From a virus: 40,072 bases of DNA. A program made the translations under genes and the position numbers. The stretch is taken from IMG/VR virus record IMGVR_UViG_3300014839_000019, positions 1 through 40,072 of that record. One strand, written 5' to 3'. Shown in pieces: positions 1-17,091 of this stretch (its first letter is position 1; every line of letters starts with the position of its first letter). The notes under the pieces were generated by a model. That model ran no database searches and was not told the origin of the DNA. It saw only the letters and a list, made by a program, of their open reading frames with translations.

Positions 1-2195
1 CCCCTTTTGGCAATTTCAAGTTTTATAAGAACCGAATTCGGGAAGGTCTTATCGAAACGAGTTAATTTATCAAAGAGGTTCGCCCACCTTTCCTGGGTTT
101 CAATGGATGCAAGATTTTGGATACTTTTCTTCTGAGCGCCTAATTCGGTATGCAATTCATTTATTTGATTTTGGAGAGAAGCAATTTGTGCAGGATCTTT
201 TGATTGTTTAATTTGTTGTGTCAACTTATCAACTTCAATAGAAGTTTTCTTTGCTCCAGAAGGATCTACAACTCCTCTTTTCTGAAAATTTGTAGTTTCA
301 TTTACAACTATATGGTATCTAGCATCTACACCTGCTTTCAAAAGATTAAAACCTGGAATGTAACTATTCACAGGGTCATCTTCTTGGAGAGAGTCAAATG
401 TTGCCCAACCCCACATAGTATTTATATCAGAACTGTTTCCTTTAAAAAGAAGTCCGTGGACCTTTTCTGTTAATTCATTAAAGTATATAGTTGATTCTGC
501 AACTAAAGATTTGTATCTCTCGTGTTGCTTGTCATCAGTGATTCCATTAATTCCATAATTATAGAAACCGCTCTCAGATTGTTTGAATGTTCTCCCGTCG
601 AGAGGGTTATCACCTCTTGGAGTCATATTCTTTTGCATAATACCAAAGATCATCTTCTTGAGACCAATGGCGCCACCAACAAATTCTTGTCGAAGAACTT
701 CAGGATTATCTTCTAATTTAGTAGTAGATTTAATTCCATTCTCAGCAAACATGAGAGAGATCATACTTCTTCCAGGCATAGAAGGAATAGTTTCACTTGA
801 AATACTTTCCGTTACGAACTCTTCTAGACCAAACATTCCAAGAAAATCATTCTGTATAGTTAAATTGAGTAGACCTTGAGGAACTTGGCGGAATTTCAGT
901 GCCGTAGATTCCATCGAGTCATACATAATATTTATTTTTTCAAGATCAGAGAGTCCATATTCTTTATAGTTTTTTGCATTAATTAGAAAGGATACACGAG
1001 TTCCCTGTGAACCAACATGTTGAAGTGTCGGATATCGATAACCGACCATAGGAATAACAGCAAGAGTGTTTTCAAAAGAAACAGTTACTTGTTGGATAAC
1101 TGAATTAACTTCTGCTTTTCCATAAAGTTGATGTTCGATTGTATGGTATCTCTTTCTTCCATAGAGCTGCATAGTTCCAAGATTTGTATCTAAATCTTTT
1201 AAATGAACTTTTGCAGAAGTCTCTAGAATCTTTTGATAATCACCATCGGTGACCTTATCCACTTGACCTTGTTTCCCTTGCACTTTCTTTTTATCTTGTT
1301 CAATTTTTTGGGCAAGAAGAGAACCAGGGGTTGGATTCAACGGAGTCTGATTTGGATTTTCTTTCACAGGAAAGAAAGTTGTTACTAGAGAAGCAGGAGG
1401 ATTGAGTGGAGTTTGATTTGGATTTTGACTAGTAGGATAAAACTCTTTAGTATTTGTCGTAGAAGTATTTGTGGTAGAAGCTAATTTAAATTCTCTCCAC
1501 ATAAATATAGTCTTTGCTTTTCCTCCACTACCATGAGGATAATCTGCAGGGGCACAACCAGTCTCGAAAGGTGAATAAAACTTTCTCCAGATAGGACTCT
1601 TTGAAGGAGGTCCAGGTTGATTGAGAAGGGTACCTGTTTTGAATGCAATGATTGGCGTGAATGGTAGATAGTTAAAATACATCATATCAAACACACCTCT
1701 AACACAATCTGGCTTTCCCTCATGTCCAAGAGTAGAGAAAGTCATCTGTGATAGAGCGAGCATTATTGGTTTGAAAGATTTATAACATTTGTCAGGATCT
1801 ATGGTTGAGGAATCTCCTTCTCCTGGTTTACCAAGTACACTTTCAACATATCTGTTCTGAACTACACAGAAGGGAGTCGCGCGTAAACCTGCAACAAGAC
1901 TAATCATATCTGGGAAATCTGCATTAGTAAAAATTACATCAAAGGAAACACGCGCAATGCTATACCCAGATTTAGATTGTCTCTTTTGAATAGTACGAAG
2001 AGTTGCCCATTCATGATTGAATGCTTGTTTTTCTATGTGGATATTCTGAGGAGATATAGCAAGAGTGATATCATTTATAGTAAATTTATCTGGTTCTGTT
2101 TTTGTAGCATCTGGAAGACGAAGCGGTTCTTCCCGTTCTTCATCATCAGTTATATTATTGGTAGTTACAGGAAGAAGGGGTTTAGAAGCTGCCAA
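1..2195 (-). CDS. Putative baseplate/tail structural protein, partial (C-terminus beyond left edge)
   Basis: This open frame runs 731 codons from a TTG at 2195 to the left edge with no stop. TTG is chosen because AAAGGAGA sits 6-7 bases upstream and an in-frame TAA lies just before that site. Two similar beta-rich halves (about residues 40-210 and 345-480) flank a Pro/Asn-rich linker in which NPNQTPLNP occurs twice. A Gln-rich coiled coil follows near residues 660-700. No signal peptide or enzyme motif is seen. Its place after the tail tube, chaperone-position and giant virion genes suggests a baseplate hub or wedge component; that is inference from gene order. It has its own consensus promoter immediately upstream, unlike most genes here, so it may be expressed independently of the upstream operon. 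Confidence 0.8.
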   Translation of the reverse strand, partial: MAASKPLLPVTTNNITDDEEREEPLRLPDATKTEPDKFTINDITLAISPQNIHIEKQAFNHEWATLRTIQKRQSKSGYSIARVSFDVIFTNADFPDMISLVAGLRATPFCVVQNRYVESVLGKPGEGDSSTIDPDKCYKSFKPIMLALSQMTFSTLGHEGKPDCVRGVFDMMYFNYLPFTPIIAFKTGTLLNQPGPPSKSPIWRKFYSPFETGCAPADYPHGSGGKAKTIFMWREFKLASTTNTSTTNTKEFYPTSQNPNQTPLNPPASLVTTFFPVKENPNQTPLNPTPGSLLAQKIEQDKKKVQGKQGQVDKVTDGDYQKILETSAKVHLKDLDTNLGTMQLYGRKRYHTIEHQLYGKAEVNSVIQQVTVSFENTLAVIPMVGYRYPTLQHVGSQGTRVSFLINAKNYKEYGLSDLEKINIMYDSMESTALKFRQVPQGLLNLTIQNDFLGMFGLEEFVTESISSETIPSMPGRSMISLMFAENGIKSTTKLEDNPEVLRQEFVGGAIGLKKMIFGIMQKNMTPRGDNPLDGRTFKQSESGFYNYGINGITDDKQHERYKSLVAESTIYFNELTEKVHGLLFKGNSSDINTMWGWATFDSLQEDDPVNSYIPGFNLLKAGVDARYHIVVNETTNFQKRGVVDPSGAKKTSIEVDKLTQQIKQSKDPAQIASLQNQINELHTELGAQKKSIQNLASIETQERWANLFDKLTRFDKTFPNSVLIKLEIAKR

Positions 2196-2255: not shown

Positions 2256-5200
2256 CTATCTACCTCTTATTAATGAAGATAGTTTTTGCGGGGTAAGGGA
2301 TTTGCGATCATCTCTAATCAGAGTAGAACTGCGCGAATTACTCCCTGTAACAGATCTCATTCTCCCACTCATACCTTCATAATCTGTAGGTCGAGAAACA
2401 TTCCCACTAATAGAAACATTGTATCCAGGATTGGCCGCAATGCGCGCTGTATTCCCTGATGGTGTAAAGTTAGAAACTGTAGGTCTTCCTTGGACACCTT
2501 CATTAGGATGGAGTCCTTCAGGACCAACATTGCTTCCACCAGATCCACTAGAAAGATTTGGACGTGGTGGAGTATTGGCGCCAGGAGGAAGCATTCTTGG
2601 AGGATCTGAGAGAGCCATCGCTATTCCAACTGCTACACCCACTCCAATAGCAAGAGGTTTCGCATGAGACAACATTCCTTTTCCCATTGCAGCCATTTTA
2701 TTGAGAGAGGAAAGAGCACGTTCTGAAGCAGCAGCCATTGGACTACCTTCTGCTTTTGCAAAGTTCTGAACAAAAGAAGAAAGAGGAGATTGCGCCATTG
2801 TTTCTTTACTCATCAACCGAAGTGCCTCTTCAGAAGTAAGTGTCTTTCCTGTTTTCCCATATATCTGACGAAGACGCGAAGCAGTCACTCCTCCTGCTTC
2901 TGATCTTTCAAATGCACCACGAGATTTAACAATATCTGCCGCACCTCGTTCCATGTCCAACCCTGGAATAAATCTCGTCTCTGAAGTACCTCTTTTTATT
3001 TCATCAGTAGCAATTGTGATTCCTTCATGCATTGAGCCTATCCCAGTCTCTTTTGCGGCTCCCATAACTTCATTTACAGTTGAAATAAGTCCACCTACGT
3101 TCTTTTTTGCTAAACTAGAATGCATTCTGTTTAGAAGATTGAGTAGAGATTCCTCTTCACCAGTTGCTACGTGCTTAGCAGAAATAGGCGTTTGTTCCAT
3201 CCATTCAAGAAGGCCGAGTGCATTCATTTGAGATTTTGCTGAAAGCCCTCCAGCCCCAGAAAGAACAGAAGCCTTGTACATTGCCATTTCGTTAGAGATG
3301 GCACCTAGTTTGTTACCTTTGGTAATCCCAAGTTTAAAGACAGAACCTTTCATTGCTTCTGAAATATTTGCAGCACCGGCACCTGCCGCTTTTGCTTTCA
3401 TATATTGAGAACGGAGAATATATTCTTCATAGAGTTGAGTGGATGCAGGATTTAAAAGTTCTTTTTCTATTTGTTTCGTCAACTGAGGTCCAGCAAAAAT
3501 AGCAGAGACTACGTCTCCATCTGTATCTCCAGCCGATCCAACAAGAGGAGAAAGACGAAGAGGATTACTCGTTATTTCTGCTCCCATTTCTTGAAGTTTC
3601 CCAAGAGATTTACGTCCACCTCTGAAAGCATTTGTAGCAAGTTTCGAAAACTCTTCTTCCTCTGCGGCACCAAGACGACCTTTTACTGCAATAGCATTAA
3701 CTCTTCTTTCATTAAACATTGCTATTGGTCTGTCACCTTCTATTTTTTGGAACTGTACTAGTTGAGACGAATAGGGTCCAATCATTGGGTGTCTTTCCAG
3801 CACCCCAGCAATAGGAACTCCTTTTTTAAAGAAATTTTCTCTCATACTAGCAATATCGTCTTTTGCATAGATACCAAGTTCTTCCATTTGAGAGAACATT
3901 CGTTCTGCATAAGGACCAGTTATTCCAACGGATTTTGTAGAGAGGTTGTATTCCGCAGTTGTTTCAACAGCACGGAGGGCCATACTTCCTGGAATTCTAT
4001 TTCGAAGAACTCCACCTTTACTTGTGACTGTCCCAATAACTGCTTGTCCAATATTAGAAGTGAGATTTTCAAGTTCTTTCTTCATTAAATCTTTTGTAAG
4101 GTTTCCTTTTTCGTATTCATTTGCGGCTTCTATCACATCACGATAGGAATGCGCAAGAGGAGAATCTACTGTCATCTTACTTTCTGTTTGATAGGAAGAA
4201 AGTTGATTCATTGTTGTAGATCCAGGAATATATATATCTCCCAGACCAGATATTTTCATATTAGTCCCACTAGTCGGTAGGAGATTCTCCCCAGCTGACT
4301 CAAGAACGCTTGCGGCTGAGAGAGATCCTTCGCGTTTCCCAAGTGACGAAATAGAAGAAAGAGAAGACATCAATTCTTTTTGCTCATATAGTCTTTCAGG
4401 ATGTTGACTCATAAGACGGTGAGCAATATCTTGTTTCAGTTCGTTACCAACAGATCCGAAATGTGGGGCACTCAACATTTCAAAACCACGAGGTTCCATT
4501 GTCGCCATATTTCCCGCACCAGTTTCAGGACCTGATCCAGCAAACCAGAGTTGGGTTCTTCCAGTAGCAACCCCTCTATTTATTTCTAGAAGTTCTTGTT
4601 CATTTAGTCTATCGGCAAATATATTTTCCCATCCTTTCCCATAAATATCTGGAACAGCACCGAAAACTCTTCCCATTTGTTCTGCAGAAAGTTTTGATGA
4701 ACGTGCAATTCCAAAAAGTTTTCGGATGAGTAATTCATCATTTCTAATATTTTCTTTAATAGCAACTCTATTCATTTTAGCTATTATCTTTGTAGGATCA
4801 TTAACAAAATTACTACCAAGAGTAGCCATATGTTTTCCAGATTCCATATTAGTTTTAGAAAATTCCCAGAGAGAAGTTATCATTTGATTGAAATGAAGTC
4901 CCCGATCTTTCCGAAGTTCTTCCATAGAGATAACTGCTGCGACATCTCCCACTGTTTCTCCAGTTACTCCAACTCTACCAAGAATATCTAGGATTCCCCT
5001 TTTTGTAGTTGGTGCAGCAATTCCTTTTGCACCACCATAAACTTTTGCCCAATCAAGTGTTTCTGATTCAGAGAAACCCATTATTTTAGTGAATTGTTTT
5101 TTCTGTTCATCTTCAAATGTTGTTGCTGCTGTAAGAAAGGTATTCTGCGGTAGAGAGACGGGTCGTCCTTGTGCATCATATCCAAGGAGCGTCCCTTTGC

Positions 5201-6785
5201 TAACCATTTCTCCAGTTTTCCAACCTTCAACCTTCGAAGCAATCTCAAATTGAGAAAGACCCTCTACACCTCTCATTTTATTCATCTCACGAGAAACAAG
5301 AAGTTGTCCTTCGGAAGAAACCCCTAGTCCTTGAAGTGCTTGTCCATGTTTTGCAGAAACGAAAGCCGCTTCAATAAGAGGAGTTTTTACTCCACCTTCT
5401 GCTGCGGCCCAAGAGAGACTTTTCTGTATAGTATTTGCTTCCATTTCTACAAGAGCATCTACAGAAGGAGAAAATCCATGTCGGATATATTGTTGTGGTC
5501 TACGACCAAAATCTCCCGCAGAAGGAATCAGATATTTAGAAAAGGTTGTTGGATTCTGAAGAGAAGCGACACCCTTCGCTATCTGATTAGGAGAAGTTCC
5601 TGGAAAAACTTTCAAAGAACCACCGCCAGGAAGACTAATTCCACTTTCTACGGCTTCGGCATATTCATAAGGAGTAATTGGGACAATCCCGTCTTCACCT
5701 TTTTTGAAAAGATGTACTCTTGCAGCATTTTGTCTGATGTATTCATCAAGTCCCTCATGAAGACCTGTTCCAAGAGAGGGTAACCATTCTCCAGACTTAA
5801 TTACTTCACTTTCAAATTGTCTAGTAACTGTATTTATTTCTCGTTGTTTTAATCTTTTACTACTAATTAGTTTAGGTATTAGTTCTTCATTGGCACGCCA
5901 TGCCATATATTGCTCATGGTTAAAAGATTCCTTCATCATTCCATTATCCACTAAACCATAAACACCAGTGAGATATGTAGATTGTTGAGTAGCACCTTTA
6001 GTAATTGTAGTTCCCATACCAGCGAATGGACCAGTTACAAGAGAGTGGGCATTTGAAGTACGAGGGATACGAAGTTTCATAGAAGCACTTCCGAGTTTAC
6101 CTCCAGAGAGAACTGCTTCCATTTGTTCTCCAAGAACATCTTCTCTCCACTTAGAAGTAAGTTTAACTGTACCTCCTGTAATCTTTTCCATTCTTCTAAA
6201 CTGATCAGCAAGTTTAGAATCAAGTTGACCAATTTCAAGAGAAGTTCTTCTTCTAGAAACTTTTGCTCCAAGTCCTTGTGGATTAATAGATAACCCCTTT
6301 GCTACTCTTTCGGAAAGATAAGAAATATCTTGAGTGAATGCACTAATAGTTCTCTGCATATAAACAGAACGAGGATGTGTCTTGAATATTTCAGAAATAT
6401 CTTTTAGAGCCTCTTCTCCTGTTTTCGCATCAGAAAGTCTTCTAGAAAAAACAGAAGTAAGATGACCCGTAGGATCAATACTTGTAGCAAGACGAGTAGC
6501 AATTTCCTTTACTTGTCCTGCTGTTAGTTTTGTATCAGCAGCAACAGTTCCAATCTTTTTAGAAAAATATTCTTTAGCTTCAGATGTAATCTCTCCAGTA
6601 GAATAATGTTCAGCAAAATTTTTGAGTACTTCATTGGCTTGAGAGAGTTGAGAAGGCGCGGCATCTTGAATCATTTCTGACCAAGAAGAACGAATTTTCC
6701 CAATAGACGAAACGGCACCAGCAATAACTGGAGCACCAATAAGTGCATTCTTAAAGAATGAACCACCATCATTATCGTTTGGCAT
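2256..6785 (-). CDS. Putative virion-associated, two-barrel (cellular-type) RNA polymerase
   Basis: This 1509-aa protein shows landmarks of single-polypeptide DNA-directed RNA polymerases with two double-psi beta-barrels, as in YonO and crAss-like phage gp66. In order: GEMVSKGTLLGYD (525-537) and AKVYGGAKG (580-588), resembling the beta-subunit barrel with its paired lysines (candidates K581, K587); KGGVLRNRIPGSMALRAV (923-940), like the beta' KRVDYSGR region; RHPMIGPYSS...EG (998-1017), like RxPTxHR...EG; and LRLSPLVGSAGDTDGD (1076-1091), matching catalytic DxDGD (D1087, D1089, D1091). TPISAKHVATG (1199-1209) may be the trigger loop. A hydrophobic segment lies at 1378-1391, before a Gly/Pro/Ser-rich tail. 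The start overlaps the preceding gene by 14 bases, with AGGAGA upstream. Its site among tail genes suggests a packaged, injected enzyme. The motif order is convincing; overall homology is unproven. Confidence 0.7.
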   Translation of the reverse strand: MPNDNDGGSFFKNALIGAPVIAGAVSSIGKIRSSWSEMIQDAAPSQLSQANEVLKNFAEHYSTGEITSEAKEYFSKKIGTVAADTKLTAGQVKEIATRLATSIDPTGHLTSVFSRRLSDAKTGEEALKDISEIFKTHPRSVYMQRTISAFTQDISYLSERVAKGLSINPQGLGAKVSRRRTSLEIGQLDSKLADQFRRMEKITGGTVKLTSKWREDVLGEQMEAVLSGGKLGSASMKLRIPRTSNAHSLVTGPFAGMGTTITKGATQQSTYLTGVYGLVDNGMMKESFNHEQYMAWRANEELIPKLISSKRLKQREINTVTRQFESEVIKSGEWLPSLGTGLHEGLDEYIRQNAARVHLFKKGEDGIVPITPYEYAEAVESGISLPGGGSLKVFPGTSPNQIAKGVASLQNPTTFSKYLIPSAGDFGRRPQQYIRHGFSPSVDALVEMEANTIQKSLSWAAAEGGVKTPLIEAAFVSAKHGQALQGLGVSSEGQLLVSREMNKMRGVEGLSQFEIASKVEGWKTGEMVSKGTLLGYDAQGRPVSLPQNTFLTAATTFEDEQKKQFTKIMGFSESETLDWAKVYGGAKGIAAPTTKRGILDILGRVGVTGETVGDVAAVISMEELRKDRGLHFNQMITSLWEFSKTNMESGKHMATLGSNFVNDPTKIIAKMNRVAIKENIRNDELLIRKLFGIARSSKLSAEQMGRVFGAVPDIYGKGWENIFADRLNEQELLEINRGVATGRTQLWFAGSGPETGAGNMATMEPRGFEMLSAPHFGSVGNELKQDIAHRLMSQHPERLYEQKELMSSLSSISSLGKREGSLSAASVLESAGENLLPTSGTNMKISGLGDIYIPGSTTMNQLSSYQTESKMTVDSPLAHSYRDVIEAANEYEKGNLTKDLMKKELENLTSNIGQAVIGTVTSKGGVLRNRIPGSMALRAVETTAEYNLSTKSVGITGPYAERMFSQMEELGIYAKDDIASMRENFFKKGVPIAGVLERHPMIGPYSSQLVQFQKIEGDRPIAMFNERRVNAIAVKGRLGAAEEEEFSKLATNAFRGGRKSLGKLQEMGAEITSNPLRLSPLVGSAGDTDGDVVSAIFAGPQLTKQIEKELLNPASTQLYEEYILRSQYMKAKAAGAGAANISEAMKGSVFKLGITKGNKLGAISNEMAMYKASVLSGAGGLSAKSQMNALGLLEWMEQTPISAKHVATGEEESLLNLLNRMHSSLAKKNVGGLISTVNEVMGAAKETGIGSMHEGITIATDEIKRGTSETRFIPGLDMERGAADIVKSRGAFERSEAGGVTASRLRQIYGKTGKTLTSEEALRLMSKETMAQSPLSSFVQNFAKAEGSPMAAASERALSSLNKMAAMGKGMLSHAKPLAIGVGVAVGIAMALSDPPRMLPPGANTPPRPNLSSGSGGSNVGPEGLHPNEGVQGRPTVSNFTPSGNTARIAANPGYNVSISGNVSRPTDYEGMSGRMRSVTGSNSRSSTLIRDDRKSLTPQKLSSLIRGR

Positions 6786-9700
6786 TAGCTAAACTTCTCC
6801 TGAGTTGTTCTCTGTCTGTTTTACTTCTGTCTTCTTTGAACTCAAGCTTTGTAGTCGTCTGTCCTGCCCCTGTAGGAACGATGTTAATAGAGGCTCTCTG
6901 TATACCTGCACCGAGTAGAACGTCGTTTATGCGGCCTCTCAGGGCTTCCTGTGGCAAGGGAGAAATGTCTTGTAACTGTTGAGCAGCTTCTTGGGCCATA
7001 GGCTTTCTGGCAAGGTTGCGAAGTCTATCTGGCCAAAGATCGTATTCGAATGCATTTTTCCCTTCGTCAGTTATAACCTTCATTTTTATATCTTCAAGAT
7101 CTACATTCGGCGAGTTGTGGTAAACGCCAATGAAGGTTTGGTAAGAATGTCCAACTGGTATTTCGAAATCGTAAACTTCTTCATTAGATGCAATTTCTTT
7201 TATAGTTTCAATTCTATAAGCAACAAAAGAAGAAGTAATGATAGCTGAAGTTGTATTTGTCAATGGACCTACAGAAAAAATAGGTTTCCGGTTATATCGA
7301 GTAATTGGACTTAGAAGCGAAACGGGAATTCCTTGAGTTTCCCAAATGCATTTGGCAAGAAAACAAAAAGATTCATTTGTTATTACTAAACGATCTCTTC
7401 CATCTTTGCTCCCATCTCCAGTAAGAATTCCTTCAAGAAAAGCAACTTGGCTTTTGCGTGTTAATTCTTCTATCCAAAGAGGAGGATGTTTAGTGTCACA
7501 ACCTCTTCCTATCCATGTTTCGAAGAGAGAACCTAAAATACCACTATTTACCTTAAGACAAGAAGAATTCCCAGTTTTCCTATATCTTTTAATAATTTGA
7601 CTTTCAATTCCAAATTTTTCTTTGACTATTTTTTGAGCTAATTCAAGAATAGGGATTTCTTCGATAGACATAGTTATCATGAAACCCCTCATTCGTTTTC
7701 CAGTAGACCAAACATTTCCATCAGCGACGACTAAACCAACTAACCACATAAGAGATTCGTCTAAAGAAACTATTTTCTTAACTGGTCTGATTAAACCAGA
7801 AAGTGGTCTTAAAGTCGTTTCGTCTATTTTTAAACGATCAGAAACTTGTTTTGGGATTTCTTTCGAAATATCAACTATAGGAGTTTCTAAAGAACATTTT
7901 AAGTGTGGTCTAACTAAATAGTGGTTAAGAGTTAATTTTTCGATTGGAGTCCATTCAGGAATATATTTCTCAAAATGTTTGTTCTCACAATGAGAACATT
8001 TCCATCGATCTTCTTTGCTTAGACAAACAGAACTAGGTCTTACATCATATTGACATCTTTTAGTTTCAAAAGCTAAAACTAGATGGTTTGGAGTTGCTTT
8101 CATGGTATGAAGATCGTCATGTGTTACTTTAATTTCAAAAAGATTTTTATAGTTCATACGTTTAAATATAGCACTTATTGTCCGAATGTCACCATACTTG
8201 TCATAAAGTTGATTTCCAATTTTTAAATTTGAGGTCTTTTCTTTTTGAAATCCTGGAATCAAAAGTTCTTGTTCTCCTGGTAAGCACCAACCAACCCAAT
8301 CGGGTCCAGGAAGAGAACGACCTTCTAGTTTCTTTGCAAGAAGTTTAGTTCTGCGATACCAATCAGGATAACTTTCCTCCTGCGCGCGAGTTGAATTGAA
8401 CTCTGCCCAAAGTTCTTTATCCTTCGGCATTCCCTGTTCTTGTTTCTGAACTGCAAGATCTTCGAGGGTAACGGTTGCTTTTTGTTTTTGTTCATCTGAA
8501 AGAAGTCCAGCCTTTTCTGCTTTCTGTATATCTGCAGCATCCTTCATCTTCCAACGAGCATTCATAAGTGCTTTTTCATTTTCTGGAAGAGAGGAATATA
8601 TCTCTGGACGTTCTTCTATAGAGGCTTGAGAAAATGCATCAAAATAGTCTCTCTCTCGTCGAGGAAGACCACGCATTATATAAGTATAGTTAAAGGTAAA
8701 AGGGTTAACTCCAAACATAGTTTCTCTACGTTTAGAACCCATTTCTTTTGCTGTTTCTTCATCACCTGCAACTTGTGCTTCTCTTTCGAGACGAGTTGCT
8801 TTTACATACTTCAGAATATCAAAGTACTCTTCAGTATCACGTTTTTCTTGCACTTCTGAAGGAATAGAATGTGAACCAAGAGCATGAGTAGTACTAGTTG
8901 TGAATGGTTTCAGGAAGTCTCTAATTGGGTGTTCCCAGAATCCAGATTGAGTTCCATACAACTGATTCTTTTTATAATCTTCAAGAGCTGTTCTCATATG
9001 AACAAATTTAGAAGCAGGAGAAACTGGGGTTAGGAACTCAAGAGGAGTTTCAGATTTGTGAGCAAGATTCTCCCAATAAGAACCAACAGTTCTTTCGAAC
9101 CAAGAGGGATCGCGAGTTTCCTTCTGCGACTCATTCGAAGTAGCAAGGATCCTTTCCATAGGAGTCTTATCTTCATCTTTGTAGAGATATGGAGAGAATT
9201 CTTTCTTTGTTTTGCGTGCCGCTATTTCTTTCATGGTCTGATGATATTGATTCACATCTTCAGGAGATATATCCCCTTCAGAAACTAGTTTTTTAACTTG
9301 TCCAAGAGTCTGACCATATTCAGAAGAATAAGGAGCGATATCTGCAAGAATAGAAAGACGAGTTATAAGAGGATAGTTTTCAGGTGCAATACCTTTCATC
9401 TCTGGATGAAGTGCAGAGTTATGGACAAGAAATGAAGTTACGAATTCATGAGTATCTTCAATTTCAAAGTCGTAAACTATCCCCTCATATCGACTATTAT
9501 CAATATTCCTTATTTTGAATGCTCGATGACTATCAATAATAAAATTACTTATTGTCTTAGAAGTAGAAAGATCAACTGATTTGTTCCCATCAAGATGGAG
9601 AAGATGGGAACTAGAAGCCAATATTGTAATTTCCCAACAAGGCTTGCCTCGAATAGTTTTTCCAGTTTTTTTATAAACTGATTTTCTTGATGGTCTAAGT

Positions 9701-12700
9701 ATTGTCGAATAATCAATATCGAAAATATTCAAGTAATAAAATAATTGAGATAACAATTTTGGGTATTTTGTCGATACACAAAGTGTATAAGTTTCTTTTG
9801 CTAAATGAGAATCCCCTTGAAATAATCCATCCAAAAGCCAAAGAAATTGCTGTTTACTTAAAGTTGAAGGAAGTTTTTTATTTTCAGAAGTCCCAAATAT
9901 ATTTTTTAAGTACAAACCAAGAACTATATTGTATGTGACATGGGTATAACTATGTTCTTCTCCACTTTTCTTAGAAAATTTACCGTTAATAACTTTGCCA
10001 ATTTTATCTGAAATAAACTTCTCTTCTTCTGAAAGAGCAAAATCAATTCGGGAATTTCTAGTACTAATAGAACCCTCCGCTAAGTATAGACCAAACATAT
10101 ACCAAGTTTCCTTATCGTCTGGCAGAGAGCAAAAGATTTGTTTATTTCTTCTTAATTTTCCTTTAAGAAGATTCCAAGTTTGATATAGATTTTCTCCTTC
10201 TGAAGAAATCCCTGTTCCCTCAATTACAGAAGCAATATCAATTGGGAATGGAACTAAATCTTGGTTTAGAAGAGGTAAGGTAACGTAATCTCCTTTCTCA
10301 AGATTTTTCGCCATAATCCATTCAATTTTATTTTTTTGATAATCTCGACATTTTGTCTGTTTGCACATAGAAGAGAATTTACAAGGACGACGAGATTTAT
10401 TTGCCGTATCTCCTTTATGGTATTTACATTGAGAAATTTTTACTGTTTTGACTTGGTGTTCTGGTGTTAGAAGTGTAGCTTCTCTTAACCCACCATAACT
10501 TTCGATAGAAAAAATCTCTCCTGCAAATTGACGAGTAAAGATATTTAGTACTGACTTGAATCCTTTAGAAGTAAGGACTTTATCTTCTAGTCTTATATCA
10601 GATGCTTTTTTGTATCCTTCGATTGTATAAACTTTTGTTTCAGGATGCAGACAATATCCAGGACCAGGAAGTCGTTCTTCGCCTAATTGAACTTTTGCAT
10701 ACGGATCACCTGTCCGAAAGTCAGGAGATCTTTCTCCAGAAGTTGGCATCCATGAAGGCATAGTATTCTGAAGAGGATTATACTGTGGAATTTCTCTCCT
10801 ATGGTGAGGATAAAGTCTTCGAAAGAGTTCGGATGTCGATGCCATCCCACCCATTTCTTTATCCCAATAATCTCTCTCTGCAGAAGTTATTCTTCCAGCA
10901 GATTCTAACATTGATTCTTGTGCGAAAACATCTTGATTACCAGTTATTCGAGAATAGAGAGAGTTGAGTACGAACCCTGGCATACCTACTGCTTCTTGGG
11001 CACGGTAGATTTCTTCACCAACAACACTTTTTATTCCGAAGGGAGATATAGGCGCTCCTTGTCCTGATTCTCCTGGAGTAGTAATCTCTCCAAACTTTGG
11101 AGGCATAGGTTTAAACGCGCCACCTTCCCCACTCTTCATAAATTCATTTTCGTGCATAAGAACAGGAGGTTTAATTAGTCTACCAATAGTAGAAGAAATA
11201 AGAGGACCAACGAAAGGTATATCTTCTCCAAACCCACCCGAAAGTGGATAAGGACGGTCCCAGTAATGTTCACGTTCTACGTCATATGTAAAATTCTTTT
11301 TATACCATTTAGTAAGTGGAGATAATTCTTCTTCTCCATATACCGATTTGTCTTTTGCTCTTGCAAGCATTCTTGGATACCAATGTTGTTGGAAACGATC
11401 TATCTTATCGCCTTCCCACGCAGATCTTCCAGCTTCCCACCAACGACCTTTTCTAATTTCAACCTTCTCTTGACCAGAGTAGAGAGCTTCGAGTTTCTCT
11501 GGTCTATCTGAAGGGACAAGGGCGCCAGGAACGAAAGGAGCAACGAGAGCAAGACCAACAGCAAGACCACCCATCCAACGAAGTTTGCCAGGAGTTACTT
11601 CTCCAACTACACGAGAAAGAGATCCGACAATAGAACGACTTCTCTGACGAGAAGCAATCGCAGTTGCTATCTTGCCTTCCCATGATGCTAGTTTCTTTTC
11701 TGTTTCTTGTTGAACAAGATTAATTCCTCTATCGGAAAGAGTAGAGAGAATTTCATTTCCCATTGCTTTCCCATGAGCGAATGCTTTAAAACTTGCATCT
11801 ATCGCTCTGGGAATGGCTACTGCTTCTTCAAGAGAAAATCCTGCTGCCTGAAGGCCAATCTGTTTCTTTACACGAAGACCATAGTTTATTCCAAGACCAC
11901 CAAGAGCACCCATAATTGGGAATGCTGCCAATTTAGTTAGAGAAGTAGATCCTGGTGCTATTTCTTCTTGTCTCTCTCTATAGTCGTGGAGACCAAGAAC
12001 TTCTGCAGTGCGAGAAATCGCCTTCTGTCCTTTTGTCCAAACAGTTGCACCAGCAGCAGTAATACCTTCATCAAAAATAGTGTTACTTAATACATCAGAG
12101 TTTCTTACAGAATAATCTAATTGCTTATACCCAAGATATGCAGCAACACCTATACCTGCTTTACCTGTTAACTTCGCAAGAGTTCGAAGTCCACTAGATG
12201 ACTCAACTCCAAAACCTTTTTTGAATCCAGGAATTTTCTTAATCTGATTAAACAGATTAGACATTCCGGGAAGTTCTGCGGGTTGTTGGGCTAATCTATT
12301 CAGTCTTTCTATCGCAGAGGTGCCCCATCCTTTAATACCTCTTGTATAAGATTGGAATCTGCTTTTTCCTCCACCAAAAGAAATAATGTCAGAAGCATCT
12401 TCACCAGAAAGAGTTCCATAAGTGATTTTTGCTTTCAGAGATTTGGAGAGTCCTGCAATATCTCCTTTTGCAATAGAACGCGCTAATCCTTCTTGGTAAG
12501 TTGCACCAGCTAATGTAGGAGAACGAAGAGTATAGGCATGTTTGAGAAGAGTAGTTTTCTTTTCGTCTAGAAGAAGAAGTCTTCCTCCACTAAAAGCAAA
12601 ACCATGTTTTCCTACTCTGCCAGTAGTGATATCTTCGCCAATAGTATTTGAAAGATTTTCTAACCAAGTCCGACCTTCAGGACTTTGTGCTAGATTGCGA

Positions 12701-13029
12701 ATATGTTGGTCGGAAAATATCTTTGTAGCTTTACTAGCAGTTTCAAGAGGAGAGAAGATATGAGAGAGTTGAAAGGTACGTAGAATACCACCAGGAGAAT
12801 ACTCTTCAGCAGTTCTAATTCCCTGAAGGGCATAATCCCATCCACGTCCATGAAAGGCATATTTATTTAGAAGTTTTCCAGCTCCCCAGATACTGGAGAC
12901 AGTCCCAGCAACGCCGAGTAAAGAATGGAATTGATTAGATAAAGGATTCGGAAGAGGTTGAGGACCATCGGTCCATTCCTCAGGTTGAACTTGTTGATGA
13001 AGTTGGGAACCTCTAAATGCGAATGCCAT
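6772..13029 (-). CDS. Giant tail-module virion protein interrupted by two inteins (tape-measure candidate)
   Basis: The precursor is 2085 aa; removing inteins at residues 793-1204 and 1582-1972 leaves a 1282-aa product. The N-terminal 500 residues are Gly/Ala-rich with hydrophobic stretches, for example near 365-380 and a likely membrane segment at 485-503. The middle is Pro/Tyr/Trp-rich, and residues 1240-1560 are charged and helical. The gene directly follows the chaperone-position genes, the usual tape-measure slot, and the hydrophobic segments fit a tape measure or an internal ejection protein. It lacks the long uninterrupted coiled coil of many tape measures, so that label is positional only. 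The ATG at 13029 has no obvious Shine-Dalgarno sequence, which is unusual here. The last 14 bases overlap the RNA polymerase-like gene, implying translational coupling. Confidence 0.8.
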   Translation of the reverse strand: MAFAFRGSQLHQQVQPEEWTDGPQPLPNPLSNQFHSLLGVAGTVSSIWGAGKLLNKYAFHGRGWDYALQGIRTAEEYSPGGILRTFQLSHIFSPLETASKATKIFSDQHIRNLAQSPEGRTWLENLSNTIGEDITTGRVGKHGFAFSGGRLLLLDEKKTTLLKHAYTLRSPTLAGATYQEGLARSIAKGDIAGLSKSLKAKITYGTLSGEDASDIISFGGGKSRFQSYTRGIKGWGTSAIERLNRLAQQPAELPGMSNLFNQIKKIPGFKKGFGVESSSGLRTLAKLTGKAGIGVAAYLGYKQLDYSVRNSDVLSNTIFDEGITAAGATVWTKGQKAISRTAEVLGLHDYRERQEEIAPGSTSLTKLAAFPIMGALGGLGINYGLRVKKQIGLQAAGFSLEEAVAIPRAIDASFKAFAHGKAMGNEILSTLSDRGINLVQQETEKKLASWEGKIATAIASRQRSRSIVGSLSRVVGEVTPGKLRWMGGLAVGLALVAPFVPGALVPSDRPEKLEALYSGQEKVEIRKGRWWEAGRSAWEGDKIDRFQQHWYPRMLARAKDKSVYGEEELSPLTKWYKKNFTYDVEREHYWDRPYPLSGGFGEDIPFVGPLISSTIGRLIKPPVLMHENEFMKSGEGGAFKPMPPKFGEITTPGESGQGAPISPFGIKSVVGEEIYRAQEAVGMPGFVLNSLYSRITGNQDVFAQESMLESAGRITSAERDYWDKEMGGMASTSELFRRLYPHHRREIPQYNPLQNTMPSWMPTSGERSPDFRTGDPYAKVQLGEERLPGPGYCLHPETKVYTIEGYKKASDIRLEDKVLTSKGFKSVLNIFTRQFAGEIFSIESYGGLREATLLTPEHQVKTVKISQCKYHKGDTANKSRRPCKFSSMCKQTKCRDYQKNKIEWIMAKNLEKGDYVTLPLLNQDLVPFPIDIASVIEGTGISSEGENLYQTWNLLKGKLRRNKQIFCSLPDDKETWYMFGLYLAEGSISTRNSRIDFALSEEEKFISDKIGKVINGKFSKKSGEEHSYTHVTYNIVLGLYLKNIFGTSENKKLPSTLSKQQFLWLLDGLFQGDSHLAKETYTLCVSTKYPKLLSQLFYYLNIFDIDYSTILRPSRKSVYKKTGKTIRGKPCWEITILASSSHLLHLDGNKSVDLSTSKTISNFIIDSHRAFKIRNIDNSRYEGIVYDFEIEDTHEFVTSFLVHNSALHPEMKGIAPENYPLITRLSILADIAPYSSEYGQTLGQVKKLVSEGDISPEDVNQYHQTMKEIAARKTKKEFSPYLYKDEDKTPMERILATSNESQKETRDPSWFERTVGSYWENLAHKSETPLEFLTPVSPASKFVHMRTALEDYKKNQLYGTQSGFWEHPIRDFLKPFTTSTTHALGSHSIPSEVQEKRDTEEYFDILKYVKATRLEREAQVAGDEETAKEMGSKRRETMFGVNPFTFNYTYIMRGLPRRERDYFDAFSQASIEERPEIYSSLPENEKALMNARWKMKDAADIQKAEKAGLLSDEQKQKATVTLEDLAVQKQEQGMPKDKELWAEFNSTRAQEESYPDWYRRTKLLAKKLEGRSLPGPDWVGWCLPGEQELLIPGFQKEKTSNLKIGNQLYDKYGDIRTISAIFKRMNYKNLFEIKVTHDDLHTMKATPNHLVLAFETKRCQYDVRPSSVCLSKEDRWKCSHCENKHFEKYIPEWTPIEKLTLNHYLVRPHLKCSLETPIVDISKEIPKQVSDRLKIDETTLRPLSGLIRPVKKIVSLDESLMWLVGLVVADGNVWSTGKRMRGFMITMSIEEIPILELAQKIVKEKFGIESQIIKRYRKTGNSSCLKVNSGILGSLFETWIGRGCDTKHPPLWIEELTRKSQVAFLEGILTGDGSKDGRDRLVITNESFCFLAKCIWETQGIPVSLLSPITRYNRKPIFSVGPLTNTTSAIITSSFVAYRIETIKEIASNEEVYDFEIPVGHSYQTFIGVYHNSPNVDLEDIKMKVITDEGKNAFEYDLWPDRLRNLARKPMAQEAAQQLQDISPLPQEALRGRINDVLLGAGIQRASINIVPTGAGQTTTKLEFKEDRSKTDREQLRRSLANAKR
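7114..8286 (-). other. Intein 2 of the 2085-aa protein (LAGLIDADG type)
   Basis: This 391-residue in-frame insertion starts at Cys1582 (CLPGEQELL) and ends VYHN at Asn1972, with Ser1973 as the +1 nucleophile, as expected for a splicing intein. The block-B-like motif is ATPNHL near 1645-1650. Two LAGLIDADG helices are visible, LVGLVVADG (1763-1771) and FLEGILTGDG (1864-1873), so a homing endonuclease is probably present and intact. A four-cysteine cluster (C1659, C1669, C1678, C1681) between splicing block and endonuclease may bind zinc. The insertion point follows LPGPDWVGW in the extein. Confidence 0.93.
9418..10653 (-). other. Intein 1 of the 2085-aa protein (LAGLIDADG type)
   Basis: This 412-residue insertion starts at Cys793 (CLHPETKVYT) and ends FLVHN at Asn1204, followed by Ser1205. 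Penultimate His plus Asn/Ser is the canonical splice end. The block-B-like motif is LLTPEHQV (853-860). LAGLIDADG-type helices are FGLYLAEGS (979-987) and LLDGLFQGD (1065-1073). It has a Cys-rich insert (C868, C883, C889, C894) at the same relative place as intein 2, suggesting a shared origin. It interrupts the extein after LPGPGY. Confidence 0.93.
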
Positions 13030-13067
13030 TGGAAATTAGAATATCTTGTTTAGAGAATATGTCGTCT

Positions 13068-14024
13068 CTAACCTTGTTTTTTCTTTTCTAATTCAGCAAG
13101 GAGATCGGCATAAACCCATTGAGCTGTTTTTATTAGATTGTTTCTTGTATCTTTTGTTTTCATTTCAAGAATTTTTGCTCTCACATCAGGATGGGCATTT
13201 TTCTCATCATTGTCGAGAGACATATCATCTGCGTCTCTGGAATCAGCAGCAAAATCTATCTTCTTTTTATTTTTTGCTTCAAGAACAGGAGAAACCTTCC
13301 ATGGTTTTTCTTTTGAAGAGAGAGGTGTTTCCATCTCTTCTTTTTTAATTTCAACAGGTGGTTTCTTTGGAGTTTTCTGTTGTTTCTCCCATAGAGCTTT
13401 TGCATCTATCCGAGGAGAGAGAGTCTCTTCAGGAGGTGGACCTTTTGGTTGTTCAATATGGTTTAGATCACGGAATTCAACACGAGGTTTCTTTTTCTTT
13501 TGTGTTTCTTCAGAAGCATCTTTCATTTCTATAGGTTCCTTCAACATACCCATTTCGAGAAGTTTCTTCTCTGCCATAGCAACACGAAGAAGAAATGTTT
13601 CATAATCCATTGCATATATTTCTTCTGGTTTGTAAGGGAATGCCATAGTTATTACTTGAACAAGATCTTGAATAGCACGAGTACCATCTGAGAATAGAAT
13701 AGTACGCGCCATTTCTAGATCATTATTAAATTCAGTGATTCCTACTGGACCAGACATCTCCCATATATTCTGGACAACAACACTGATTATTCCAGCCTTC
13801 ATAAAAGGCATCTGACGAATAAATGTCTTCTCTATAACGCATTTCTTGAATATCTCATCCTCTAGGATAGAAGTTGGGATTAATTTACGCGCATAATCTC
13901 TAGAGTATTTGAGATAGTCTCCAAGAGAGAGAGGACGCCAGGGGATAACAGGGCCATCAGGGAAAGAGGTAAGATAAGTATCGCCATACTCCTGACGAGT
14001 TTTGGAGAAAAGCGATATAGTCAT
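13068..14024 (-). CDS. Putative tail assembly chaperone-like protein (long form)
   Basis: This 318-aa protein lies between the tube-like genes and the giant 2085-aa gene, where tail assembly chaperones normally sit. Its N-terminus (YGDTYLTSFP..., residues 13-22) resembles the neighbouring 131-aa protein (YGDVYVSGF), suggesting the two are paralogs. The C-terminal half from about residue 175 is highly charged, Lys/Glu/Pro-rich and probably disordered. The ATG lies 3 bases after the stop of the 131-aa gene with no clear Shine-Dalgarno, so translation probably depends on reinitiation. No slippery heptamer was seen joining the two, unlike lambda gpG/gpGT. The functional call rests on position and this weak repeat. 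Confidence 0.55.
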   Translation of the reverse strand: MTISLFSKTRQEYGDTYLTSFPDGPVIPWRPLSLGDYLKYSRDYARKLIPTSILEDEIFKKCVIEKTFIRQMPFMKAGIISVVVQNIWEMSGPVGITEFNNDLEMARTILFSDGTRAIQDLVQVITMAFPYKPEEIYAMDYETFLLRVAMAEKKLLEMGMLKEPIEMKDASEETQKKKKPRVEFRDLNHIEQPKGPPPEETLSPRIDAKALWEKQQKTPKKPPVEIKKEEMETPLSSKEKPWKVSPVLEAKNKKKIDFAADSRDADDMSLDNDEKNAHPDVRAKILEMKTKDTRNNLIKTAQWVYADLLAELEKKKQG

Positions 14025-14027
14025 CTG

Positions 14028-14423
14028 TTATAGTTTAGCGCAAAGAGTAGATGCCATCTGAGGAGTTACGAAACAAGAATTTTGAAGAACTTGTTCTTGG
14101 ATACCAGAAGGGATACCAGCCTTACATTTGTCCCAAGTAGTTGGAATAGATTTCCAAAGAACACAAATATCACAAATTGCTTCTTCGAATTTGAATGTAT
14201 CCATTTTCGCTTCGGGATCAGCAGACTTTACTTGAAGAGCAACCCATTCTGGACGTGTAATAGCACGGAATACAAAGAGTTCTGTCTCTGAGAATCCTGA
14301 CACATACACATCGCCATAATCTAACTTCCACCCTTCGATGACTTCTGGTGTTGGTGAGTTTGGGAAAGCTTTCAAGATATCTGGAAGTGTTTGAGGTTGT
14401 TCTACTTTTTCTTCTTTAGACAT
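14028..14423 (-). CDS. Putative tail assembly chaperone-like protein (short form)
   Basis: A 131-aa acidic, mainly helical protein starting at ATG 14423 with AAAGGAG 8 bases upstream. Its YGDVYVSGFSETELFVFR segment (residues 36-53) resembles the N-terminus of the downstream 318-aa protein. Five cysteines are scattered with no metal-binding spacing. In many phages a short and a long chaperone related at the N-terminus precede the tape measure, and the same arrangement is seen here, though as two separate genes. I do not recognise the family directly. Confidence 0.55.
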   Translation of the reverse strand: MSKEEKVEQPQTLPDILKAFPNSPTPEVIEGWKLDYGDVYVSGFSETELFVFRAITRPEWVALQVKSADPEAKMDTFKFEEAICDICVLWKSIPTTWDKCKAGIPSGIQEQVLQNSCFVTPQMASTLCAKL

Positions 14424-14434
14424 ATATCGCTCCT

Positions 14435-14557
14435 TTATTTAATTGGATGCCAAGGAATATATTCTTCAGCAGTAAAATTAATAAATTCTTCCATAATAAT
14501 GTCATCAATAGAGACACCAAATTTTACAGAAGTTAATTTTATTTTTTTTAATTCCAT
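14435..14557 (-). CDS. 40-aa mini-paralog of the tail-tube C-terminal module
   Basis: A 40-residue frame from ATG 14557 ends with a TAA at 14435, immediately before the ribosome binding site of the 131-aa gene, typical tight packing. Its GVSIDDI followed by a W-x-P end closely matches the C-terminus of the 225-aa tube-like protein (GVSIDDI...GWTPV). Similarity extends about 8 codons upstream of the ATG, back to a TGA, in a frame +1 to the end of the 254-aa tube-like gene. It could be a remnant of a fourth tube copy, a small expressed protein, or a C-terminal extension reached by frameshifting. There is no clear Shine-Dalgarno at this ATG. Confidence 0.5.
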   Translation of the reverse strand: MELKKIKLTSVKFGVSIDDIIMEEFINFTAEEYIPWHPIK

Positions 14558-14573
14558 TGTTGCTTTTTGCCCA

Positions 14574-15338
14574 TTATACTGTCACCTGGCAAAGGAATTG
14601 ATATTGTTCCTGTATCGGCCCTTCAGACATTCTAATTGTTTTTCCTTGGGAAAGCAAGGATACATTAATAAATTTTAAAACTGTATGGTTGGGTTCTTGG
14701 CTTGAAAAGTTGCCGAATACAAGAAACATATCAAACCCATTAAAAACTGTGTTAGTTGGTTTTCTTATTTGTTTGAGAAGATCTTCATTCGAAACACCAT
14801 TTCTCCATACTTCGTTTTCGAATTCATCCATCAAATTAGCAAATCTAGTATCCTTTGCCTTCCCTTTCATTTTTGGATCAGATGTAGCATAACCAGCTAG
14901 ATCGTGATAAAACTGAAACTCCTCTCCTCTAGTTGCTTTCCCTTGAGTAACTCTCTCGATACTTTCACGAGTAATGCCAGTATGGTTGTTCCCAGACCAG
15001 ACTATAGGAGAAGTTTTACCTGCATTTCCAAGTGCTTTTTCTGCTTTAGTAGAATTGACCGAGAGTGACAAACCCTTGAATCTTCTGAGAACAGCCCAGA
15101 GATACCCTTGTTCCTTAAAGTTAATAGTGAAATTACCTTGTACAAGACACTGTCCCGCCGCGAGATCATCGAAAAGCTGTGAGGCATATCCGTATATGGG
15201 AGTTTTATTCTCACTATCTTCATATGAAATAGAAGTAATTTCATCCACCCAGACATCTCCGATATAGAGGAACATCTGACAGGGATCAAAATAATCAAGA
15301 TCGTATATAGCAGTAGAAGGAGAGGCGTATTTTGGCAT
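14574..15338 (-). CDS. Tail tube-like virion protein, paralog 3
   Basis: This 254-aa protein carries the tube-like signature: VDEITSISYEDSENKTPIYGY early, a Q...G.F.I strand, and a terminal FDMFLVFGN...FINVSLLSQG...MSEGPIQEQY pattern, equivalent to elements of the two preceding genes. An extra insertion (about residues 85-190) lies between the two halves. Its ATG at 15338 follows an AGGAAA site and lies 12 bases after the stop of paralog 2. It could be a minor tube protein, a tube initiator or terminator, or an adaptor between tube and baseplate. Family membership is fairly sure; the exact role is inference. Confidence 0.7.
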   Translation of the reverse strand: MPKYASPSTAIYDLDYFDPCQMFLYIGDVWVDEITSISYEDSENKTPIYGYASQLFDDLAAGQCLVQGNFTINFKEQGYLWAVLRRFKGLSLSVNSTKAEKALGNAGKTSPIVWSGNNHTGITRESIERVTQGKATRGEEFQFYHDLAGYATSDPKMKGKAKDTRFANLMDEFENEVWRNGVSNEDLLKQIRKPTNTVFNGFDMFLVFGNFSSQEPNHTVLKFINVSLLSQGKTIRMSEGPIQEQYQFLCQVTV

Positions 15339-15350
15339 GTCGTTTTCCTA

Positions 15351-16319
15351 CTATAGGAAAGGATTACGTCTCAAATTGAAACGGTCCATCGCTGAATTTT
15401 TCTGGAAAGTATCATATTCAGGATCGTTGAGAAGATCGGTCGCACGAGTTCCTGTAAATGCTGTTTTCAACATTTGAGAGGGATTGTCTTTCTTTATCTT
15501 AGACTTTCTAGCTCTCATAGGATCTAAATCGCGCGCTACATATTGTACTGTACTCTCTGTAAGAAGATCTTCAATAGACATTACTGTTCCTTCAGACACG
15601 AACTCAACTCCAAAAATAGTCATAATAGATTCAGAACCATATTCATTCGCAAGGGTAATAATGATATCTACTGGTGGTAGTTGATCGAGTATAGCTGAAG
15701 AAAAAACATTTCCATCAAAGTCAGAAGGATGTGCTTCTAGAATTCTCCAAAGAACACTTTGGTCGAATACAGTGAATACAAGACTTCCAGCTATAGTTCT
15801 AGACCCGCGAGTGAATCCCTTTGGATAGACACAACCGCAAGCTCTGACATCTTTCTTATCTCGGAATGTCGATATAGAAAGAGACTGACATTCTGCGAGA
15901 ACAAGTGTTGAGACATTGGAAAGAATCAGAGAAACATCTTTCATTTGAGATTGAAGACTTTGAAGAGTATTATTTAATTCAACAAAACGTTCATTTGATG
16001 CGCGAAAAGTTTGTGAATATGTCTCGTAATCTGGCGTTCCTTGATGAGTAGAGGGAAGTTTGTTTTGAGCAATTTGAGATTGTTTTTTAACAAGAGCTAT
16101 TTCATCTTCAGTTTTTTTAATATCTTTCTGAAGAGAACTTGCTCTATCATTGTTCGGTTTTCCTCCATCAGGAAGATTAATAACAATTTTTATATCTGCT
16201 CCTGAGTAAGAAGTATTCGATCCCAGATAAACTGATCCCGGTGATATTTTCTCCTGGATATCAGTTTGAGCAGCGTTATTAATAAAAGTAGTTATACCTG
16301 TTTCAGAAAGAAAGGCCAT
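15351..16319 (-). CDS. Tail tube-like virion protein, paralog 2, with coiled-coil insertion
   Basis: This 322-aa protein shares its core with the 225-aa upstream gene: L-A-E-C-Q-S-L-S, FTRGSRTIAGSLVFTVFD and DQLPPVDIIITLANEYG align with LQAIS, FSRGKRGIAGTLIFIVFD and DQIPPFDVTLAAANEYG. An insertion at about residues 58-135 is charged and Gln-rich, probably a coiled coil, absent from its paralog. The ATG lies beneath a hairpin that could mask its ribosome binding site, which might lower its expression relative to the major tube. It is probably a minor tube or tube-baseplate adaptor; this is inference from sequence comparison and order. Confidence 0.75.
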   Translation of the reverse strand: MAFLSETGITTFINNAAQTDIQEKISPGSVYLGSNTSYSGADIKIVINLPDGGKPNNDRASSLQKDIKKTEDEIALVKKQSQIAQNKLPSTHQGTPDYETYSQTFRASNERFVELNNTLQSLQSQMKDVSLILSNVSTLVLAECQSLSISTFRDKKDVRACGCVYPKGFTRGSRTIAGSLVFTVFDQSVLWRILEAHPSDFDGNVFSSAILDQLPPVDIIITLANEYGSESIMTIFGVEFVSEGTVMSIEDLLTESTVQYVARDLDPMRARKSKIKKDNPSQMLKTAFTGTRATDLLNDPEYDTFQKNSAMDRFNLRRNPFL

Positions 16320-16321
16320 AT

Positions 16322-16359
16322 AGTCTCACCCCCACCAGAGTAACTGTGGGGCAAAGACT
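16322..16359 (-). promoter_or_regulatory. Hairpin over ribosome binding site of paralog 2
   Basis: On the minus strand AGTCT and CCCCAC (16359-16355, 16351-16346) pair with GTGGGG and AGACT (16335-16330, 16326-16322) around a 10-base loop. The GGTGAG that would serve as the ribosome binding site for the ATG at 16319 lies within the 3' arm. No U-run follows, so it is not a typical terminator. A translational throttle is the simplest reading; it is not demonstrated. Confidence 0.4.
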
Positions 16360-16394
16360 GTCAAGTTGTGAGAGAAAAAGAAAAGAGGAGAAAA

Positions 16395-17072
16395 CTATGT
16401 GAGGCTACCCTGAGAAGCGATACGGGCAGCGTTTAGAGAAGGAACTGGAGTCCAACCAATGATAGTACGAGCGACATACGTGTGCTGTTGTTCTGAAACG
16501 ATGTCGTCGATAGAAACACCGTATCCTTCATTGAGTAGTTCCACACCGAGTACACTCATAACAGCAAGCGCGCCATATTCATTAGCAGCCGCTAGAGTAA
16601 CGTCAAAGGGAGGAATCTGATCAGCATACCAAGCAGTAGCTAGTTCTTGGTCGCTCTTTACGTTAGAAATAGTTGATTCCTGACCTTGTACTGGAGTACC
16701 AGCAGTAACGCCACTTGAAGAAGAAAGACTAGTAGCAAATGCGCCAGTTCCAGGAAATCTAAACTGTGGACGAATATCATCTCTATCTGACTGGAAGACT
16801 AATCCACCATCAGGAGAGTATCCTCCAAGAGTAGATAGAAGGACGTGTCTATCGAATACAATGAAGATTAGAGTTCCAGCAATACCTCTCTTCCCTCTTG
16901 AGAAGGAACGGGGGTCAGCAGATCCCATCGTATAGATTGGAGCTTTTTCACGGGTGATTGAATAACTGATTGCTTGGAGTTCGGCAATAACTTTATTACC
17001 AAACACACCCTTGATATCAACTCCAGAAAATGAGTTATAACTTCTTGAGTAAGGTGAACTAACAGCGGGCAT
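16395..17072 (-). CDS. Tail tube protein candidate, paralog 1
   Basis: A 225-aa protein directly after the sheath gene, where the tail tube gene of contractile-tail phages usually lies. It is beta-rich, with FSRGKRGIAGTLIFIVFD near residues 57-74, DQIPPFDVTLAAANEYG near 150-166 and a GVSIDDI...GWTPV C-terminus. A Ser/Gly/Thr-rich loop spans about 110-130. The ATG at 17072 follows GGGAGGAC, a strong ribosome binding site consistent with high expression. It is the shortest and cleanest of three related tandem genes, so it is the best major-tube candidate. Confidence 0.75.
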   Translation of the reverse strand: MPAVSSPYSRSYNSFSGVDIKGVFGNKVIAELQAISYSITREKAPIYTMGSADPRSFSRGKRGIAGTLIFIVFDRHVLLSTLGGYSPDGGLVFQSDRDDIRPQFRFPGTGAFATSLSSSSGVTAGTPVQGQESTISNVKSDQELATAWYADQIPPFDVTLAAANEYGALAVMSVLGVELLNEGYGVSIDDIVSEQQHTYVARTIIGWTPVPSLNAARIASQGSLT

Positions 17073-17091
17073 TTAAATGTCCTCCCTGTAA

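Follow-up and report, generated by a model that had tools for sequence, protein, structure and literature searches.

The tail module of virus record IMGVR_UViG_3300014839_000019 encodes a 1509-aa protein (positions 2256 to 6785, minus strand) that is very probably a single-chain two-barrel RNA polymerase (RNAP), judged from residue conservation, an AlphaFold2 model, and Foldseek comparisons. The window discussed below is the whole 40,072-base record, and all of its features named here lie on the minus strand. We think it likely that the protein is carried in the tail, is ejected with or before the DNA, and is responsible for transcribing the first phage genes. Catalysis, ejection, and early transcription by this protein are what we infer from the evidence as a whole.

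Residues K581 through D1091 span positions 3513 to 5045, and every peptide quoted by the original prediction was present at its residues and coordinates. A strand-rich region at residues ~494 to 606 (4968 to 5306) was taken as the β-like double-psi barrel (DPBB-B), based on strands in both models, conservation, and the matches of a fragment covering residues 380 to 905; we place the exact barrel boundaries at about these residues. It contains the candidate paired active-site lysines, K581 and K587 (5025 to 5045). Residues 923 to 940 (3966 to 4019; family consensus approximately RGKxxGSRFLT) are probably comparable to the KRVDxSGR stretch of β′. The R998-H-P...S1006-x-Q1008 segment (3762 to 3794) is the apparent equivalent of RxPT..(I)Q upstream of the catalytic loop. 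D1087-x-D1089-x-D1091 (3513 to 3527) is the putative catalytic Mg-binding triad of the β′-like barrel (DPBB-A). The stretch between the barrels, of ~330 aa, appears long. In the model, DPBB-A leads into long helices, one of which bears a conserved E-(Q)-x-P-I-S-x-K-H motif (E1197-QTPIS-x-K1204-H1205; 3171 to 3197), a candidate trigger-loop/bridge-helix element. The chain ends with a hydrophobic segment (from about residue 1375) and a C-terminal tail ending IRDDRKSLTPQKLSSLIRGR; this block (residues 1368 to 1509; 2259 to 2684) has similar counterparts in relatives and is a candidate tail-anchoring or ejection domain. In the proposed chain order, the β-like half with the K581/K587 barrel would precede the β′-like half with the R998 motif and the three aspartates, and nucleotides would be added where the two barrels meet.

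Sequence searches with the 1509-aa protein gave no Pfam, PHROGs, or PDB sequence match of note, no tblastn match among 50,697 phage records, and no relatives when viral contigs were searched directly. PHROGs contained no RNAP match, the Pfam RNAP profiles matched neither this protein nor 31 relatives, and a PDB profile search gave no sequence-level link to a known RNAP. The RNAi-polymerase profile had no match in the family. With hhalign, the family profile had no significant match to the single sequences of P23-45 gp96, P23-45 gp64, YonO, or the C-terminal part of phi14:2 gp66.

Relatives were reached through neighboring genes. A search with the tail sheath yielded four related viral contigs; two had a counterpart of the 1509-aa protein downstream, with 25 to 28% identity, and a third had a partial relative at the same place. 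A profile of the more conserved upstream neighbor gene then retrieved 73 loci, and an iterated profile search among their open reading frames (ORFs) gave 32 nonredundant long family members, whose identity to the window protein was 16 to 41% (median, 20%). Ten large related contigs had a strong match, and each of them carried exactly one family copy, always at this locus. Beyond these, the profile recruited nothing but intermediates from the same locus (L041, L042, L058, and L038, and, more weakly, L037, L081, and L077). Giant ORFs of 1370 to 2944 aa follow the neighbor gene in L037, L041, L042, L056, L063, L075, L076, L077, and L081, and they carry DxDxD-type motifs (DFDGD, DFDRD, DVDND, DFDSD, DYDRD, and NADVDAD). 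Several of them are too divergent for the family profile, and therefore the family is probably wider than 32 members. In L058, the gene at the RNAP position seems to be split into overlapping ORFs of 910 aa (12193 to 14922) and 896 aa (14877 to 17564); the second has DTDLD and matches the profile, and the arrangement is possibly a natural β/β′-like split. No confirmed relative emerged when 84,980 prokaryote genomes were scanned with the neighbor-gene profile, so that the scan provided neither a host assignment nor a hint of prophages.

Several residues named by the original prediction were among the most conserved in the 32-member alignment. D1091, D1089, D1087, and R998 took ranks 1 to 4 of the 1509 residues, each at 100%, and P1000 (rank 9, 97%), K581 (rank 12, 97%), S1006 and Q1008 (ranks 18 and 19, 94%), and K587 (rank 21, 94%) followed closely. 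Only 9 of the 1281 well-filled columns were invariant (P241, G535, G540, G742, P854, R998, D1087, D1089, and D1091); G535 and G540 lie in the DPBB-B region, as do the near-invariant K581 and K587. If columns are treated as interchangeable, the probability that four residues named in advance all land in invariant columns is ~1e-9. No remaining Asp exceeded 78%, and no other Lys exceeded 69% except K1204 (94%). In the helix after DPBB-A, E1197 was 97% conserved, and K1204 and H1205 were 91 to 97% conserved, depending on how gaps are counted. The three aspartates, R998, and the paired lysines had been named before any homolog was known and yet rank at or near the top, which is more than chance. 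As read from the alignment, the pattern is that of a catalytic site under selection.

Parts of the proposed motifs had to be redrawn. The paired lysines stood, and the putative β-like barrel has two conserved basic residues, as in the two-barrel superfamily. The DxDGD motif kept its three aspartates but not its usually constant glycine: the fourth residue can be A, K, G, R, F, N, L, or D, and the motif is better written DxDxD. In the KRVDYSGR-like stretch, conservation was strong only at G933 (91%) and S934 (81%); K923 was conserved in just 6% of members. R998 and P1000 of the proposed RxPT...EG motif held, whereas its EG end was weak (G1017, 34%).

We modeled residues 195 to 1390 with AlphaFold2, using the 32-row alignment, and compared the model (pLDDT, 83.3; pTM, 0.83) with 350,542 PDB chains in Foldseek. 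All 43 PDB matches at an E value of ≤0.001 were RNAP chains. They were mostly bacterial β′ subunits, together with archaeal and phage AR9 β′-type chains and the second subunits of vaccinia virus RNAP and Pol IV. To test the β-like half, residues 380 to 905 were modeled alone, without DxDxD (pLDDT, 82.0; pTM, 0.73). The best 50 PDB matches of this fragment were all β/Rpb2-type RNAP chains, with a top E value of 5.5e-6. The rmsd values were 5 to 50 Å. Foldseek TM-scores were low (0.11 to 0.31, query normalized), which would not be surprising in enzymes that have diverged so far and contain so many insertions. In the models, then, both halves, β-like and then β′-like, resemble two-barrel RNAP folds. 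The original prediction had named two findings that would speak against a divergent two-barrel RNAP, namely, loss of the aspartates in homologs and a fold lacking the barrels. Instead, the aspartates were invariant in 32 of 32 members, and the predicted fold resembles both halves of such enzymes.

Among predicted viral protein structures (BFVD), the best match was a "minor tail protein" of a siphovirus (A0A8S5SD80, from ctnpt50; E value, 5.8e-10). The other top matches were an uncharacterized ME3 protein, in two halves, and viral RNA polymerases. The siphovirus match, between predicted models, suggests tail-borne RNAPs in another phage group.

The remaining window genes on the minus strand include terminase-, portal-, and capsid-like genes and those for the tail sheath and tube. 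From the sheath gene, the order runs through the tube gene, several small genes, and a large conserved neighbor to the RNAP gene, which is followed by a hub gene with an M23 peptidase. Sequence searches identified the contractile tail sheath gene (17092 to 18990, minus strand), which bears out the predicted contractile-tail phage. The neighbor gene (6772 to 13029, minus strand) encodes 2085 aa including two inteins, and its product is a relative of ME3_35, a virion structural protein. The start of the baseplate hub/peptidase gene lies at 3 to 2195 (minus strand), with a PHROG endolysin match, and the gene runs off the window; the gene at the hub place in contig L014 (10867 to 16797) has a Peptidase_M23 match. 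Acinetobacter phage ME3 and Bacillus phage 0305phi8-36 (L080) have the same gene order. The two intein-like insertions that break the neighbor gene have intein splicing and LAGLIDADG matches; both insertion sites, one following RLPGPGY and the other LPGPDWVGW, are highly conserved. The portal-like gene (27658 to 31338, minus strand) has a LAGLIDADG match as well. In a 198-kb relative, simple k-mer counting turned up no phage-specific promoter motif beyond the level of shuffled sequence.

A block similar to the C-terminal domain is present in 0305phi8-36 gp146, in KLEB27-3 gp034, and in a 193-aa protein of contig L021 (13740 to 14321). The L021 protein, like that of L022, consists only of the hydrophobic segment and tail domain and lies between the neighbor and the hub. 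There is no other family match on those two contigs, and the polymerase module appears to be naturally absent there. This stand-in suggests that the polymerase is cargo that an anchor domain can do without, and it makes the neighbor more likely to be the tape measure. Both its position and L021 point to the gene at 6772 to 13029 as the candidate true tape measure protein. We also considered the 1509-aa protein as the tape ruler itself, and we rejected this because L021 and L022 hold only the 193-aa C-terminal domain at that place.

The closest functional parallel is P23-45 gp96, a virion RNAP that forms the N-terminal part of a 5002-aa tape measure chain (PMC10770324). Like the window protein, it is a one-chain two-barrel RNAP of the tail module, with DxDxD and an association with the tape measure, and neither protein has recognizable sequence similarity to other RNAPs (PMC10770324). 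The two differ in arrangement: the gp96 polymerase is fused N-terminally, whereas here it is a separate 1509-aa gene beside the likely tape measure, with the shared tail domain at its C terminus. The gp96 motif is DFDGD, whereas the fourth DxDxD position is free here. P23-45 has a very long noncontractile tail, and the window phage is contractile tailed. gp96 is flat and clamp-less, which its discoverers tied to passage through the tail.

Phages phi14:2 and N4 have short tails. The crAss-like phi14:2 gp66 and the N4 virion RNAP resemble the proposed enzyme in being very large, virion carried, and used for early transcription (PMC10770324). However, gp66 has specific elements in common with the RNAi RNAP QDE-1 (PMC10770324), and the N4 enzyme is a member of the RRM-palm family, which is unrelated (PMC7824862). 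The phiKZ/AR9-type enzymes are two-barrel virion RNAPs of contractile-tailed jumbo phages, but they are multisubunit, with β and β′ split. The β-like and β′-like halves here share one open reading frame, which sets the protein apart from the phiKZ type.

Isolated phages have counterparts at the same locus. In Acinetobacter phage vB_AbaM_ME3 (genome, 234.9 kb), ME3_36 (AND75197.1, "hypothetical protein") lies between ME3_35 and the hub, in the same position as the 1509-aa protein. It matches the family profile over the paired-lysine region (E = 3e-6) and has GGDHDQD, but it is very divergent and has no RNAP annotation. KLEB27-3 gp034, annotated as a "structural protein," has RYPTINQSTIQ and KADYDGD. 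The 0305phi8-36 protein at the RNAP place, which we take to be gp146, shares the gene position and a similar C-terminal domain, but its frame is without DxDxD, and the phage has a separate RNAi-type polymerase elsewhere (gp99). In that phage, orf146 was assigned as the tape measure mainly on length, and orfs 143 and 144 were named as the only nonstructure genes nearby (PMC2147016). Among 20 records searched, only 0305phi8-36 and the L081 phage had a second, RNAi-type RNAP. L081 is a 199.8-kb contig in which the tail-module ORF with NADVDAD occurs together with this separate polymerase; the two are possibly a virion/nonvirion pair.

We weighed these data against other readings. The RNAP fold could be a retained scaffold, inactive or nearly so, in what is mainly a structural tail protein such as a tape measure or ejected pore. 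The protein does sit where 0305phi8-36 has gp146, its assigned tape measure (PMC2147016), and has a similar C-terminal domain, and the glycine of DxDGD is gone in many members. However, the catalytic residues are the most conserved while the remainder diverges to ~20% identity, and a polymerase part that can be dispensed with, leaving a 193-aa domain, is hardly a ruler; we consider such a scaffold unlikely. Chance motifs in a tape-measure-like protein would fit with the use of short motifs only by the original prediction, but this explanation is largely refuted already, by conservation ranks 1 to 4 and by two fold searches with solely RNAP chains among the top matches listed, and we give it almost no credence.

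It seems to us quite unlikely that the protein is a real polymerase that stays out of the virion as a late product of the structural operon. Synteny alone is no proof of packaging, and P23-45 gp64 is a nonvirion enzyme of the same superfamily (PMC10770324). Nevertheless, the C-terminal domain is common to proteins at the tape measure position, the KLEB27-3 counterpart is annotated as structural, and a polymerase produced alongside tail proteins would arrive too late to serve early or middle transcription. We regard it as very unlikely that the two-barrel polymerase uses a different template or makes a different product (RNA dependent or primer making, of the RNAi or PolD type). The superfamily does include RNA-dependent enzymes and DNA polymerase D (PMC10770324, PMC7824862), and 0305phi8-36 orf99 resembles RNAi polymerases (PMC2147016); yet the family has no RNAi-polymerase profile match, its best PDB matches are DNA-dependent RNA polymerases, and an injected RNA-dependent enzyme would be of no obvious use to a DNA phage.

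We therefore favor a tail-carried, DNA-dependent RNAP. The unsuccessful sequence-level searches, the low TM-scores, the free fourth DxDxD position, and the empty promoter count speak against this reading. Its packaging in the virion, as the original prediction had proposed, is suggested by the gene position, by the shared C-terminal domain, by the structural annotation of the KLEB27-3 counterpart, and by analogy with precedents including P23-45 gp96. In this scenario, the C-terminal hydrophobic segment and tail would probably anchor the RNAP within the tail, either in the lumen or at the hub of the baseplate. The enzyme would probably be delivered together with the DNA or before it, and it would transcribe the first genes until transcription passes to the host polymerase or to a later one of the phage.

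Neither the two-barrel superfamily nor the concept of an RNAP carried in a tail is new. What is new is the putative RNAP family itself, in contractile-tailed phages of the ME3/0305phi8-36 lineage. Further new points are that the polymerase has a gene of its own yet shares a tail domain, that the fourth DxDxD position is free, and that one relative naturally lacks the module. We found no report of this RNAP family in the open-access literature; an earlier listing may exist in subscription papers or in the supplement of the P23-45 survey.

A broader proposal, which we hold with about even confidence, is that this contractile-tailed lineage (ME3, KLEB27-3, 0305phi8-36, and dozens of uncultured phages) ancestrally carries a one-chain two-barrel RNAP that rides on a tail-lumen anchor domain as a cargo module and leaves through the contracting tail. 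The anchor would have been kept through several losses or replacements of the RNAP module, and the fourth DxDxD position would tolerate many residues. The presence of the gene in isolated phages makes direct testing possible, and the removable C-terminal domain would be a testable candidate for a tail-loading signal. If the proposal is true, then in a lineage described since 2007, many proteins at the tape measure place would be polymerases that are invisible to sequence searches, and ME3 would be a further case. Polymerase delivery via tails would not be unique to P23-45, and early transcription independent of host enzymes would be widespread among contractile-tailed phages.
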